The notes below the pieces were generated by a model. That model worked only from the letters and a program-made list of their open reading frames with translations. It had not been told where the DNA came from and did not search any database. Positions 26,793-31,258 of a stretch of 64,000 nt of DNA are shown piece by piece; the stretch's first letter is position 1, and each line of letters opens with the position of its first letter. The stretch spans positions 1 to 64,000 of the forward strand of contig JARQPW010000003.1 of NCBI GenBank assembly GCA_029577135.1, read 5' to 3'. The translations under genes were made by a program, and so were the position numbers. The DNA is from Acidimicrobiales bacterium. Its GTDB lineage: Bacteria; Actinomycetota; Acidimicrobiia; Acidimicrobiales; MedAcidi-G1.

Positions 26793-26804
26793 CCAGGGTC
26801 AGGG
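26787..26804. terminator. Palindrome spanning two convergent stop codons
   Basis: Arms CCCTGACC (26787-26794) and GGTCAGGG (26797-26804), separated by two bases. It includes the TGA of the DUF368 gene and the TGA of the reverse gene ending at 26799. Probably a compact bidirectional terminator with a small loop. Confidence 0.4.
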
Positions 26805-27734
26805 CATCTGGGGCTGGTTGAGCTCCAGCCAGGCGTGGCCGGTTCGGCCGTCGTCGGCCCTCACCGACACGAGGCCACGGGGGAACCGCGACTGCCGGCC
26901 GTCGTCCGGGTGCGTGAGCAGCAGTGGCACCCACGCAACGGGCTCGTAATCGAGCTGCAGGTCGCCCAACTCCAGCGAGCCCGACGCCGGAATACCCTCG
27001 GGTCCGAGGTTCGGCATCGACGCCACCCGATACTCGGCGGCCAAACCGTCCGGCGACGACCGGTAGCCGATGCCGCCGTCCCGGCCGACCACCTGCACGG
27101 CGTGGAACCGCTCGCCGTCCTCGAGCCGTCCCGAGAACCAGGTCCAGCCGTCGGCCCACCAGTCGCGAACGCCCCACGAGTGGTCCCGTTGGCCCCACCC
27201 GTCGAGTTCGATGCGGCGGTCGCCCACGAACACCTCGCCCACCACCCGGCAGGGGATCTCGTAGCGGGTGGCCACCCCGTAGTGGAAGGCCCACGGCCCA
27301 CCCGATGCGTCGCCGTCGGTCTCCCACCCGAGGTCGAGTCCCACGGGGACCCGGTCGCCCCGCAGCCCACCGGGTCCGGCCCGATAGGCGTCGGTCGGGT
27401 CGTCAACGGCAACGCCGAAGGCCTCGACGCCGACGCTGAAGTGGTCGAGTGGCGCCTCGACGATCAGGTCTGCCCAAAGGCCCGAGGCGCGGATCTCTAG
27501 GCCCGGCTCCAACGGCAACGGCGCCTCGTGCTCGACCACGAAGACCGTCGGCCCGCCCACCTCGACCAGGCAGCACCAGAACCACGAGACGCCCAGTTCC
27601 GGGTAGAGGCCCAGGCGCACGTATCCGCCGGTGCGGCCTTCGGGGTCGAACCAGTCAAGGTAGTACGACTCGTTCCAGAGCCGCTGCCCGTCCGACCCGT
27701 GTCGGCGCTCGTCAGCGGGGGCGGTCTCGTGCAT
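26799..27734 (-). CDS. AttH/CrtC-like lipocalin-fold protein, function unknown
   Basis: 311 residues, rich in beta strands. The block GWGQRDHSWGVRDWW resembles the G-x-R-D-x-S-W-G motif of the hydroxyneurosporene-synthase-like (CrtC/AttH) superfamily, which has two lipocalin-like domains and binds hydrophobic ligands. No signal peptide, so it is probably cytoplasmic. It begins four bases after the stop of the 377-residue gene and so forms the third member of an operon with the swivelling-domain protein. No reaction can be assigned. Confidence 0.65.
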   Translation of the reverse strand: MHETAPADERRHGSDGQRLWNESYYLDWFDPEGRTGGYVRLGLYPELGVSWFWCCLVEVGGPTVFVVEHEAPLPLEPGLEIRASGLWADLIVEAPLDHFSVGVEAFGVAVDDPTDAYRAGPGGLRGDRVPVGLDLGWETDGDASGGPWAFHYGVATRYEIPCRVVGEVFVGDRRIELDGWGQRDHSWGVRDWWADGWTWFSGRLEDGERFHAVQVVGRDGGIGYRSSPDGLAAEYRVASMPNLGPEGIPASGSLELGDLQLDYEPVAWVPLLLTHPDDGRQSRFPRGLVSVRADDGRTGHAWLELNQPQMP

Positions 27735-27738
27735 CGGC

Positions 27739-28872
27739 TCAGTTCCCGCCGGGGGGATCGTCGGGCGGTTCGTACGGGGGAAACGGGTCAGCGTCGGGGT
27801 CGTGCTCCGGGGGCTCGATGTCGGCAGTCACCAGCGGATACAGGTCGGCCGGCGTGTCGCGGGGACAGGTCCAGTCGATCCGGTCGGCCACCCCGGCGAT
27901 CTGGGCGAACGGCCGCAGGAACGTGAAGTACACGTAGGCGCCGCAGGCGATCTGTTCGTCCCGGTCCATGCCGACGACGGCCCGATAGTGCGCCTTCTGG
28001 GCGGCCCTCGCCGCTGCTGCGGTCGCGACCAGTTCGTCGTCGCCCACCGGCTCCAGGCGCCCGCCTTCGGTCGTGTAGAGGGCGAACCCGGAGAGGTGTT
28101 CCAGGTAGTCCTCCGGAACCGACACCGTGGTCCCGAAGTCGGTGACCGAGAGGTCGACGCCCTCGTCGATGACCAGTGCCGCCGTGAGGCCCGCGTGGGG
28201 CACGTCGGCCGCAATCCCTGACCACCAGAAGTCGCTGCGCCCCATCCGGAAGAAGTCGCGCACGATCATCTGACGGCCGTCCGCCAGGTGGTAGGGGCCT
28301 GTGTCGCCGTGGCCGACCCTGGTGTCGAAGTAGAGCAGGAACAGGTGGTTGACCAGGGTGGCGTTCGCCCGTCTGAGCACAGCCCGCCGCCCGTCACCGA
28401 CCGGCGTCACCCCGGCGGCCAATTCGGCCTGCGTCGCCTCGTCGAAGGCGTCGATCCGATTGCCGGCGTCAGCAGCGTGGAGCAGGCCACCACCCCGGTA
28501 GGACCGGGAGACACGGGACCAGAAGTCGAGCACCGTGTCGGTCCGCTCGACGGTGTCGAGCGACGGATCCACCATCCCCATGACGTTGCGGCCGATCAGG
28601 AAGAAATTTGCAACGCCCCAGAGGAACACCGAATCCGCCTGGCAACCCGGCCGGCGTGCCCTGGCGCCGATCTCCTCGGGCGACATCGCCGCCGCGATCA
28701 CCTCAATGGCCGCCGGATAGCGGAGGAACGCCTCGATGCACGACACGACCACGTACTGTTGCACCGGGATCAACTGCGAGGCGTAGGAGGTGCGCTCCCG
28801 CATCAGCACCTTGGACACGGCGTTGACCTCGGCAATCAGGCCGTTGACCCGCTCCCGCGGTCCGGGGTTCAC
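27739..28872 (-). CDS. Conserved protein of unknown function, 377 residues
   Basis: Mostly helical, soluble, with Trp/Tyr/His-rich blocks (MGRSDFWWSGIAADVPHAG; HLFLLYFDTRVGHGDTGPYH) that look like a ligand pocket. The C-terminal 25 residues are Pro/Asp-rich. GTG start overlaps the stop of the swivelling-domain gene (GTGA), so the two are made together, probably as partners. I do not recognise the family. Being coupled to a phosphohistidine domain, it could be the acceptor of a phosphoryl or acyl group, but this is inference. Confidence 0.65.
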   Translation of the reverse strand: MNPGPRERVNGLIAEVNAVSKVLMRERTSYASQLIPVQQYVVVSCIEAFLRYPAAIEVIAAAMSPEEIGARARRPGCQADSVFLWGVANFFLIGRNVMGMVDPSLDTVERTDTVLDFWSRVSRSYRGGGLLHAADAGNRIDAFDEATQAELAAGVTPVGDGRRAVLRRANATLVNHLFLLYFDTRVGHGDTGPYHLADGRQMIVRDFFRMGRSDFWWSGIAADVPHAGLTAALVIDEGVDLSVTDFGTTVSVPEDYLEHLSGFALYTTEGGRLEPVGDDELVATAAAARAAQKAHYRAVVGMDRDEQIACGAYVYFTFLRPFAQIAGVADRIDWTCPRDTPADLYPLVTADIEPPEHDPDADPFPPYEPPDDPPGGN

Positions 28873-29210
28873 CCGTCGATCCGGCGGATCACGCCGCTGC
28901 CGTCCAACTCGACCTCGGTGCCGTCGGCGGGCTCGTCGTCGATGACGGCCGCTACCACCCCGGGAACCTGGAACTCGCGGCTGACGATGCCGATGTGGCT
29001 GCGGATCGTGCCCCCGGTGCACACCACACCCGCCAACTCCTCGAAGATCGGGGAGAGGAAGGTCGCCCCGGCATCCCGGATCACCGCGACGATCCCCTCG
29101 GCGCCCGTGTCCATCAGGTCGAGCACGTCGTCGGGCCCCTCGAGTCGCCGCCAGGTGCCCGGCGTCGGACCGAAGCCGAACGTCGGGTCACCGCTGCCGA
29201 TCTCCTGCAC
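28869..29210 (-). CDS. Stand-alone PEP-utiliser swivelling (phosphohistidine) domain
   Basis: 113 residues matching only the mobile domain of PEP synthase or pyruvate phosphate dikinase: GVVCTGGTIRSHIGIVSRE, with the phosphoryl-carrying His about residue 72, then FQVPGVVA. The ATP-grasp and PEP-binding domains that normally flank it are absent here and in neighbouring genes. The GTG at 29210 is preferred to one at 29249 because TACGGT lies seven bases upstream. First gene of a three-gene coupled operon. Confidence 0.78.
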   Translation of the reverse strand: MQEIGSGDPTFGFGPTPGTWRRLEGPDDVLDLMDTGAEGIVAVIRDAGATFLSPIFEELAGVVCTGGTIRSHIGIVSREFQVPGVVAAVIDDEPADGTEVELDGSGVIRRIDG

Positions 29211-29223: not shown

Positions 29224-29262
29224 GCCCCGGCGCCTTCGGAGGGGCACACCCGTCCGACTCCC

Positions 29263-30141: not shown

Positions 30142-31131
30142 CTAGATCAGGCCCAGGTCCCGGACGGTGTCTCGCTCCTCAGCCAACTCGGCCACGGAGA
30201 CGTCGATGCGGCCTCGGGAGAACCCGTCGATCTCGAGCCCCTGCACGATCGACCACCCACCATCCGAACAGGTCACCGGGAACGACGAGATGAGGCCCTC
30301 CGGCACGCCGTAACTGCCGTCCGACGGCACGGCCATCGAGACCCAGTCGCCGTCCGGGGTGCCGAGCACCCAGTCATGGACGTGGTCGATTGCCGCATTG
30401 GCTGCCGAGCCGGCACTCGATGCGCCACGCGCCTCGATGATGGCGGCACCGCGCTGCTGCACGGTCGGGATGAACTCGCCCTCCAGCCACGCCTGGTCGT
30501 CGATCGCCGCAGCGGCGGTCTGGGCGCCCACCTCGCAGTGGAACAGGTCGGGGTACTGGGTGGCCGAGTGGTTGCCCCAGATCGTCATCCTCCGGACCTC
30601 GGAGAGCGGCACACCGAGCCGGCGGGCCACCTGGGAAAGGGCCCGGTTGTGGTCGAGCCGGGTCATGGCGGTGAACCGCTCATTGGGCACGTCCGGGGCG
30701 TTGTGCATGGCGATCAGCGAGTTGGTGTTGGCCGGGTTGCCGACCACCAGCACGCGCAGGTCATCGGCGGCATGTTCGTTGAGCGCCCGACCCTGCACCG
30801 TGAAGATGGCACCGTTGGCCTCGAGCAGGTCCTTGCGCTCCATGCCCTTGGTGCGGGGCCGTGAGCCGACCAACAGCGCCACGCCGGTGCCGTCGAACGC
30901 CACGTTCGGGTCGTCGCTGAGCACCATCGAGTCGACCAGCGGGAAGGCGCAGTCGTCGACCTCCATCGCCACGCCCTCGAGGGCGCCCATGGCGGGCGGG
31001 ATCTCGAGCAGTTGGAGGACAAGCGGCTGGTCGGAGCCCAGCAGTTGGCCGCTGGCGATGCGAAAGACGAGGGCGTAGCCGATCTGGCCGGCGGCGCCGG
31101 TGACGGTGACTCGGACGGGGGTGGGGCTCAC
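30142..31131 (-). CDS. mdh: Malate dehydrogenase
   Basis: 329 residues, type 2 malate dehydrogenase. NAD site [12 protein letters not shown], substrate-binding arginines in [25 protein letters not shown], and the catalytic His in [11 protein letters not shown]. It interconverts malate and oxaloacetate in the TCA cycle. GTG start at 31131 with AGGAG six bases upstream. It ends a reverse-strand set that also holds icd and sucCD, although two ABC exporter genes lie between it and icd. Confidence 0.94.
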
Positions 31132-31258
31132 GTGGGCTCCTGGGACTTGGACACGGGGACCCGGCAAGGCTACCGACGGGCCCACAGGCGGTCACATCCG
31201 GCAGGCGGTGACATCCGTCCCCTCAAGCGACCCCGGTCAGCAGCCGGGAACCGTCCCC

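Follow-up and report, generated by a model that had tools for sequence, protein, structure and literature searches.

Closest described systems and a three-gene operon

Phosphoryl transfer through the histidine of a swivelling domain is a moving part within large enzymes such as PPDK, phosphoenolpyruvate (PEP) synthase and rifampin phosphotransferase (RPH). More recently, it has been seen split over two proteins. The subject of this text is an operon on the minus strand of a 64,000-nucleotide stretch of DNA from an Acidimicrobiales bacterium (assembly GCA_029577135.1, contig JARQPW010000003.1, positions 1 to 64,000; hereafter the window), in which the swivel is a protein of its own, encoded by gene 1, followed by gene 2, a partner of an undescribed family, and by gene 3, an AttH/CrtC-like protein.

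In the excerpts of the articles cited here, two-component dikinases phosphorylate phenols by way of a swivel His, which is essential in HpeHI (PMC12167813); VadK autophosphorylates on His422, and co-expression with its operonic partner Rv1126c improved solubility (PMC13400623); and 25-HSK forms a tertiary phosphoester from which the phosphate is then eliminated by a proposed 25-phosphosteroid lyase (25-PSL), an ATP-dependent dehydration (PMC8449060; PMC11061730). No description of the module formed by genes 1 to 3 was found in the open-licence literature. The module is no isolated oddity: it belongs with the split swivel-type phosphotransferases.

At roughly even odds (about 0.5), we read the operon as encoding the acceptor side of a phosphotransferase of several components that acts on small molecules, a system in which gene 3 may eliminate the phosphate. 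Gene 1 would be a free swivel whose His carries the phosphoryl group, and gene 2 a dedicated partner that binds a hydroxyl-bearing substrate and receives the swivel. The phosphoryl group would pass from a donor to the His of gene 1, and from there to an alcohol or a phenol held on gene 2, yielding a phosphoester. Where present, gene 3 would act on this product: by analogy with 25-PSL, elimination of the phosphate would leave an alkene, and the two steps together would amount to an energy-driven dehydration of an alcohol.

The features of the locus are as follows.

28869..29210, minus strand: gene 1 (P0001), a stand-alone PEP-utiliser mobile, or swivel, domain of 113 amino acids, GTG start (PF00391; profile against the PDB)
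28995..28997, minus strand: codon of the conserved swivel His, residue 72 of the 113-residue form, in the motif CTGGTIRSH (relatives compared)
28869..28872, minus strand: GTGA overlap of the gene 1 stop and the gene 2 start (sequence and translations)
27739..28872, minus strand: gene 2 (P0002), undescribed family, 377 amino acids, GTG start (no Pfam family; AlphaFold2 model; linkage to and fusion with gene 1)
27735..27738, minus strand: four-base gap between gene 2 and gene 3 (sequence)
26799..27734, minus strand: gene 3 (P0003), AttH/CrtC-like, DUF7065 and DUF7064, 311 amino acids, ATG start (Pfam; AlphaFold2 model; Foldseek)

This arrangement, with its GTGA overlap and four-base gap, had been proposed in a sequence-only reading of the window, and it holds: the three genes are real, and they lie in series without room for separate promoters between them, a spacing from which co-expression is predicted. 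The genome to which the window belongs has 2.35 Mb in 68 contigs and is 93% complete; the named genomes close to it by sequence are MAGs of Acidimicrobiaceae/Actinomycetota.

A free swivel domain with a conserved histidine

Gene 1 scores 30.2 bits against PF00391, above the curated cut-off of 23.1 (E-value 3.5e-7), and a profile built from 26 relatives matches, in the PDB, PEP synthase (1.9e-9), RPH (1.8e-6) and Enzyme I; taken together, these results show that the swivel domain is not a chance match. A longer reading of gene 1, of 126 amino acids from position 29249, is also open, but the 113-residue start is favoured because most relatives begin just a few residues ahead of the domain. The Ser-His dipeptide is present in all 68 distinct relatives, that is, the distinct sequences that score above 90 bits in our own gene-1 profile, so that the lone swivel and its His, both put forward from the sequence, are borne out, and loss of the His among orthologues was not seen. 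In a wider set of 26 sequences, plasmid copies among them, the motif keeps its S, H, R and P without exception. This His is a candidate site of phosphorylation.

Gene 2, an undescribed family

Gene 2 belongs to no Pfam family, and NCBIfam gives two insignificant matches only. Its AlphaFold2 model is of good quality (mean pLDDT 89.5, pTM 0.90) and runs from helices through a strand-containing middle to helices again. With this model, Foldseek found nothing in the PDB at E<=0.001, and the VIA structural comparison returned a single row, of Z 2.2, covering residues 144-291. By sequence, the PDB yielded no match at E<=1 with A1 and one chance-level match (0.26) with A2. We assign no fold to gene 2, bearing in mind that an absence of matches to a predicted model does not prove a new fold.

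Eight residues are invariant among distant members of the family (Y40, R185, G192, P193, R205, W217, P253 and Y315), and three are nearly so (R51, R95 and D245). Judged from the alignment, this set would suit an anion or phosphate site. Two other ideas about gene 2 were dropped. It does not look like a diverged substrate domain of the RPH/HpeH type, hhalign giving a probability of 0.2% against four RPH/RedH-like proteins of the same genome; and in-frame TGA flags in its relatives, which could have meant recoding, are C-terminal stops in the four that were read out.

The same residues feed an alternative in which gene 1 carries no phosphate on its His in this lineage, genes 1 and 2 forming together an enzyme in which a swivel-derived domain has some other catalytic or structural role. 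Such an enzyme could draw on the invariant Y40, R185, R205, W217 and Y315 of gene 2, and on its nearly invariant D245, and it would agree with an altered glycine motif in gene 1 and with the many genomes of the family that have no PPDK_N domain. On the other side, active swivels show the same conservation of Ser-His, the next Arg and the Pro, and related modules are linked to an ATP-grasp kinase. We regard this alternative as unlikely.

Distribution and linkage of the pair

Gene 2 is present in 32 of 61 relatives, 39 of 296 genomes of the class and 6 of 396 genomes of the phylum. The distance from gene 1 to gene 2 is no more than about 1.5 kb at every one of the 64 loci that were compared. Counted by open reading frame (ORF), it is directly upstream of gene 2 in 67 cases out of 70; the three exceptions are a divergent gene 1 (G046), a divergent one about 1.2 kb off (G297), and one just downstream (the second G245 locus). 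These loci come from 62 genomes, G245 and G259 each contributing two, and one broken gene of G262 counts as two of the 70 ORFs. The count leaves aside G251, G156, G110, copies at contig edges (L079, G019 and the second piece of G002), L145/L146, a weak match in G009 and the plasmid loci.

A gene-3-like ORF, in some cases only partial, follows 37 of the 70 gene-2 ORFs. The sequence-only reading had allowed that the three genes might rarely co-occur; genes 1 and 2, the latter being its 377-residue unknown protein, prove to be linked at all loci compared, while gene 3 is more loosely attached. In G262:C1 (L092), genes 2 and 3 are each split over two frames, by decay or by sequencing error.

In the window, a malate/lactate dehydrogenase gene (30142..31185, minus strand; PF02866/PF00056) lies nearby, and is given here for context only. 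It is often syntenic in relatives, the corresponding ORF cluster being common to 25 of the 40 neighbourhoods compared; within the class, the module consequently looks mostly vertically inherited, and often lost.

Two loci carry several gene 1-gene 2 pairs, four in G245:C425 (L073) and three in G259:C397 (L074), the latter adjoining a biotinyl-type protein and an acyl-CoA synthetase (names by eye). The neighbouring gene calls at these and similar loci are rough picks of ORFs by codon composition, some of them on the wrong strand. The multiple pairs look like an expansion for several substrates.

Fusions and linked kinases in plasmid and paralogous relatives

When plasmids were searched by tblastn with a paralogous gene-2 protein, nine records matched; of the six that were examined, one, Novosphingobium pSA1, is unannotated. 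In one copy each on Rhodococcus oxybenzonivorans pRB98 and R. pyridinivorans pA, genes 1 and 2 are fused, and R. opacus B4 pROB02 encodes a protein of 793 amino acids in which genes 1 and 2 are joined to a third family, which we call c15. Elsewhere the same parts stand in a row: gene 2, gene 1, c15, a gene-3-like gene and a short PPDK in Rhodococcus sp. 008; gene 2, gene 1, c15 and a short PPDK as one block in G464; and a gene-3-like gene, gene 2, gene 1 and c15 in Methylibium petroleiphilum PM1, near genes for a methylmalonyl-CoA-mutase-type enzyme, which we take to serve 2-hydroxyisobutyrate.

An ATP-grasp/swivel kinase lacking the PEP domain is found at the same locus as the pair in L076, L080, L121, L122, L124, L126 and L171. 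At the paralogous chromosomal loci of G261 and G259, an ATP-grasp and swivel protein without PEP domain lies near the pair. Where the pair occurs in Rhodococcus, G261, G259 and G464, the kinase close to it is a short PPDK of the VadK kind, with a protein of about 200 amino acids beside or near it. In the phylum, c15 adjoins a strong short-PPDK match at 9 of 25 loci; as a guess from length and gene order, c15 may be the Rv1126c family. The absence of an ATP-grasp partner, pointed out from the sequence, is true of the surroundings of the window genes and not of the wider system, whose plasmid and paralogous versions encode an ATP-grasp/swivel kinase beside the pair. In those versions, the His of gene 1 would be charged in trans by this dedicated kinase (a short, VadK-like PPDK), together with the small partner c15.

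Several of these loci have catabolic surroundings. L121 and L122, on pRB98 and pA, each hold three copies of gene 2 with a short PPDK, a biotin carboxylase, a CoA ligase, a thiolase and a tyrosine-type phosphatase, a cluster that probably encodes a pathway for a ketone or a phenol, in parallel to Hpe. The neighbours of G261 include a biotin carboxylase and a CoA ligase. By analogy, the neighbours on pRB98 and pA and in G261 recall the Hpe order of phosphorylation, carboxylation and dephosphorylation, the plasmids adding a phosphatase and a thiolase.

Two further occurrences of c15 were seen. In G387:C16 (L149), from an actinobacterial genome of 7.5 Mb, a gene-3-like gene, c15 and a short PPDK are adjacent, and neither gene 1 nor gene 2 is in the stretch examined. 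The genome of the window itself has a c15 relative at G000:C38:14816-15421 (L131, L148), which was considered as a missing piece of the module and set aside: it has a single match in 49 of 61 relatives, stands between dapB-like and dapA-like genes (names by eye) in those whose neighbourhood was read, and occurs also in genomes without the pair, and because of this context and distribution it is taken as a housekeeping paralogue.

It is here that a regulatory phosphorelay has to be weighed, in which gene 1 would be a His relay domain and gene 2 its protein target or sensor, so that phosphorylation regulates metabolism and has no small molecule as its acceptor. In the excerpted account, VadK, itself a short PPDK of this kind, is described as a regulatory kinase, with the methylcitrate cycle proposed (PMC13400623); weak helix-turn-helix-like matches appear in c15 and in its fused copy; and in the class the module is often beside malate dehydrogenase. 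However, the neighbours at plasmid and paralogous loci are catabolic (biotin carboxylase, CoA ligase, thiolase, phosphatase, aldehyde dehydrogenase), the four and three pairs per locus in G245 and G259 look like substrate diversification, and gene 3 is enzyme-like. On balance we would bet against such a relay.

Gene 3 and the elimination step

Gene 3 scores above cut-off for PF23212/PF23213 (DUF7064/DUF7065); against the Rv3169 family of NCBIfam (NF053593), it reaches 28.7 bits, far below the cut-off of 150 bits. Its AlphaFold2 model has a pLDDT of 92.2, and the top five rows of the Foldseek search are all 25-PSL, with E-values from 2.6e-12 to 1.1e-11. The VIA comparison with 25-PSL gives Z 23.7 and a root-mean-square deviation of 3.2 over 260 aligned residues, with 20% identity. 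In the search with the gene-3 sequence profile, 25-PSL also ranks first, weakly (E-value 0.017, profile positions 2-54). The AttH/CrtC-like lipocalin fold suggested from the sequence is therefore firm, Pfam, Foldseek and VIA all agreeing on it.

The sequence-only reading had left the choice between a phosphotransfer and a lipid-modifying system. The former is now favoured, since the nearest solved relative of gene 3 by Foldseek is a phosphate-eliminating lyase; for lipid modification, nothing specific was found. The step that gene 3 would catalyse is less clear: other enzymes of the fold have similar Z values, which secures the fold family but not the reaction.

It may be, in particular, that gene 3 is a hydratase, an isomerase or a carrier of AttH/CrtC fold, loosely tied to the pair, a possibility that leaves the proposed roles of genes 1 and 2 intact. 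AttH, pericyclases and kievitone hydratase tie with or exceed 25-PSL in structural score, many copies of gene 3 are kept in part only, and close to half of the gene-2 ORFs lack one next to them. Pulling the other way, 25-PSL leads by Foldseek E-value and also in identity among the strong matches (19-20% in the structural alignment), and gene-3-like genes recur beside the pair in Methylibium and in Rhodococcus sp. 008, as well as beside c15 and a short PPDK in G387. We consider this looser role a serious possibility, at somewhat less than even chances.

The phosphoryl donor in this lineage

The claim that a donor would have to act in trans in the genome of the window stands: a Pfam scan of eight neighbouring ORFs of the window detected no PPDK_N or PEP-binding domain. 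This genome has one PPDK_N protein, a full-length PPDK, which could in principle serve as the donor, and no short kinase of the VadK type. It also has four large swivel proteins of the RedH/RPH/PRK08296-like kind with no detectable PPDK_N, in G000:C4 (L113), G000:C2 (L115, L117) and G000:C34 (L116), and how they are charged is as puzzling as it is for gene 1.

Within the family, the pair shows no association with PPDK_N that would point to dependence on it: among 37 genomes, both are present in 6, the pair only in 21, PPDK_N only in 4, and neither in 6 (Fisher p 0.41; the pair of G019 and the PPDK_N of G030 were each scored on a fragment).

What many sister genomes are left with is only a PPDK without the ATP-grasp part, made of the swivel and the PEP-binding half. 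Ten were fetched, nine from the family (G001, G002, G005, G006, G007, G008, G013, G017 and G021) and one from the order (G048):

L172 (G001:C77), L173 (G002:C35), L174 (G005:C44) and L175-L181: ATP-grasp-less PPDK

In all ten, the alignment to PPDK begins at about residue 380-430 of the frame, and the swivel His is kept along with the CGEH motif of the PEP-binding half. The residue before the His is Ser in eight of them, Gly in L176 and Cys in L178. In the two that were scanned, the TIGR01828 match starts at position 339 or 359 and runs to the end, leaving out the ATP-grasp part. The window genome G000 and two others of the same genus, G003 and G004, which served as controls, have a full-length PPDK. 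The truncated form is the mirror image of VadK. Going by domain content, PEP may be the donor in much of the family by way of this protein, and charging by PEP would be possible in the sister genomes that have it alone.

This suggests a PEP-driven network of the Enzyme I kind, in which the phosphoryl group would go from the ATP-grasp-less PPDK to orphan or stand-alone swivels, gene 1 among them, then to an alcohol on gene 2, gene 3 eliminating the phosphate. If true, it would be a cascade like that of the PTS, without HPr or sugar permease, that drives dehydration chemistry. In this specific form, we find it rather improbable.

Points against the proposed function

Several observations weigh against the acceptor module as we propose it. 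The gene 1 motif departs from the published T/SxxGGxxxH, the second Gly being Thr or another residue in relatives: counted back from the His, CTGGTIRSH in the window keeps the first Gly, has Thr for the second, and Cys at the T/S position. Gene 2 is unrelated to the RPH-like proteins, and consequently its role as acceptor rests on position only. The short kinase of other lineages has a swivel His of its own, so that a second swivel is not obviously needed. No gene 3 stands beside 33 of the 70 gene-2 ORFs, and AttH, pericyclases and kievitone hydratase match gene 3 at Z 23-26, equal to 25-PSL or higher. As for the donor, PPDK_N is absent in 10 of the 15 pair-bearing genomes of the family that are at least 90% complete, which means that the ATP route cannot be general; and G006 and G011 have the ATP-grasp-less PPDK but not the pair. 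Both forms of PPDK being found in genomes without the pair, neither is proof of a partnership with it.

If the acceptor module is nonetheless what we propose, these operons are a concrete candidate for the acceptor side of the type of kinase related to VadK of M. tuberculosis. Alcohols may have a general route to energy-driven dehydration here, as the link to a 25-PSL-like protein suggests, and the presence of copies on catabolic plasmids hints at a part in breaking down pollutants or lignin.

Comparison with known systems

The systems HpeHI, CreHI and PpsAB, and the one-chain RPH, likewise use a swivel with a catalytic His, with which the plasmid versions described here share a separate ATP-grasp protein; in the excerpts of PMC12167813, their swivel is C-terminal to an RPH-type substrate domain, whereas here it is free or N-terminal to its partner. 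Gene 2 is not of the RPH type, and the swivel motif is altered. An ATP-grasp domain in the same protein or operon, a trait of two-component dikinases, is missing from the window ORFs scanned and present in the plasmid and paralogous relatives. The likeness extends to the surroundings: as in the excerpted account of Hpe (PMC12167813), the Rhodococcus plasmid modules are linked to genes for biotin carboxylase, CoA ligase and phosphatase.

With the tandem of 25-HSK and 25-PSL of Sterolibacterium denitrificans (PMC8449060; PDB 9fzn, 9g2i, 9g4c), the operon has in common the fold of 25-PSL, found in gene 3, and possibly the logic of a kinase followed by a lyase. The identity of gene 3 to 25-PSL is only about 20%, and 25-HSK, as described in the excerpts, is a monomeric phosphotransferase of 43 kDa with a sequential mechanism, for which no phospho-enzyme was detected (PMC8449060), unlike a swivel His.

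Enzyme I of the PTS, PPDK and PEP synthase share their swivel His motif with gene 1. The ATP-grasp-less PPDK of the sister genomes has the content of Enzyme I, a swivel and a PEP-binding half, while gene 1 is itself a swivel. An acceptor of the HPr type was not identified, no search having been aimed at one.

Finally, the kinases found near the pair in other lineages lack the PEP domain, as does VadK (Rv1127c), which is paired with Rv1126c; the window genome has no such kinase. The parts of the VadK account that we cite (PMC13400623) mention neither a lone swivel nor a gene-2 protein, and these two are what the present operon adds to the family of split swivel-type phosphotransferases: a swivel that is a protein in its own right, and a partner to which it is constantly linked.

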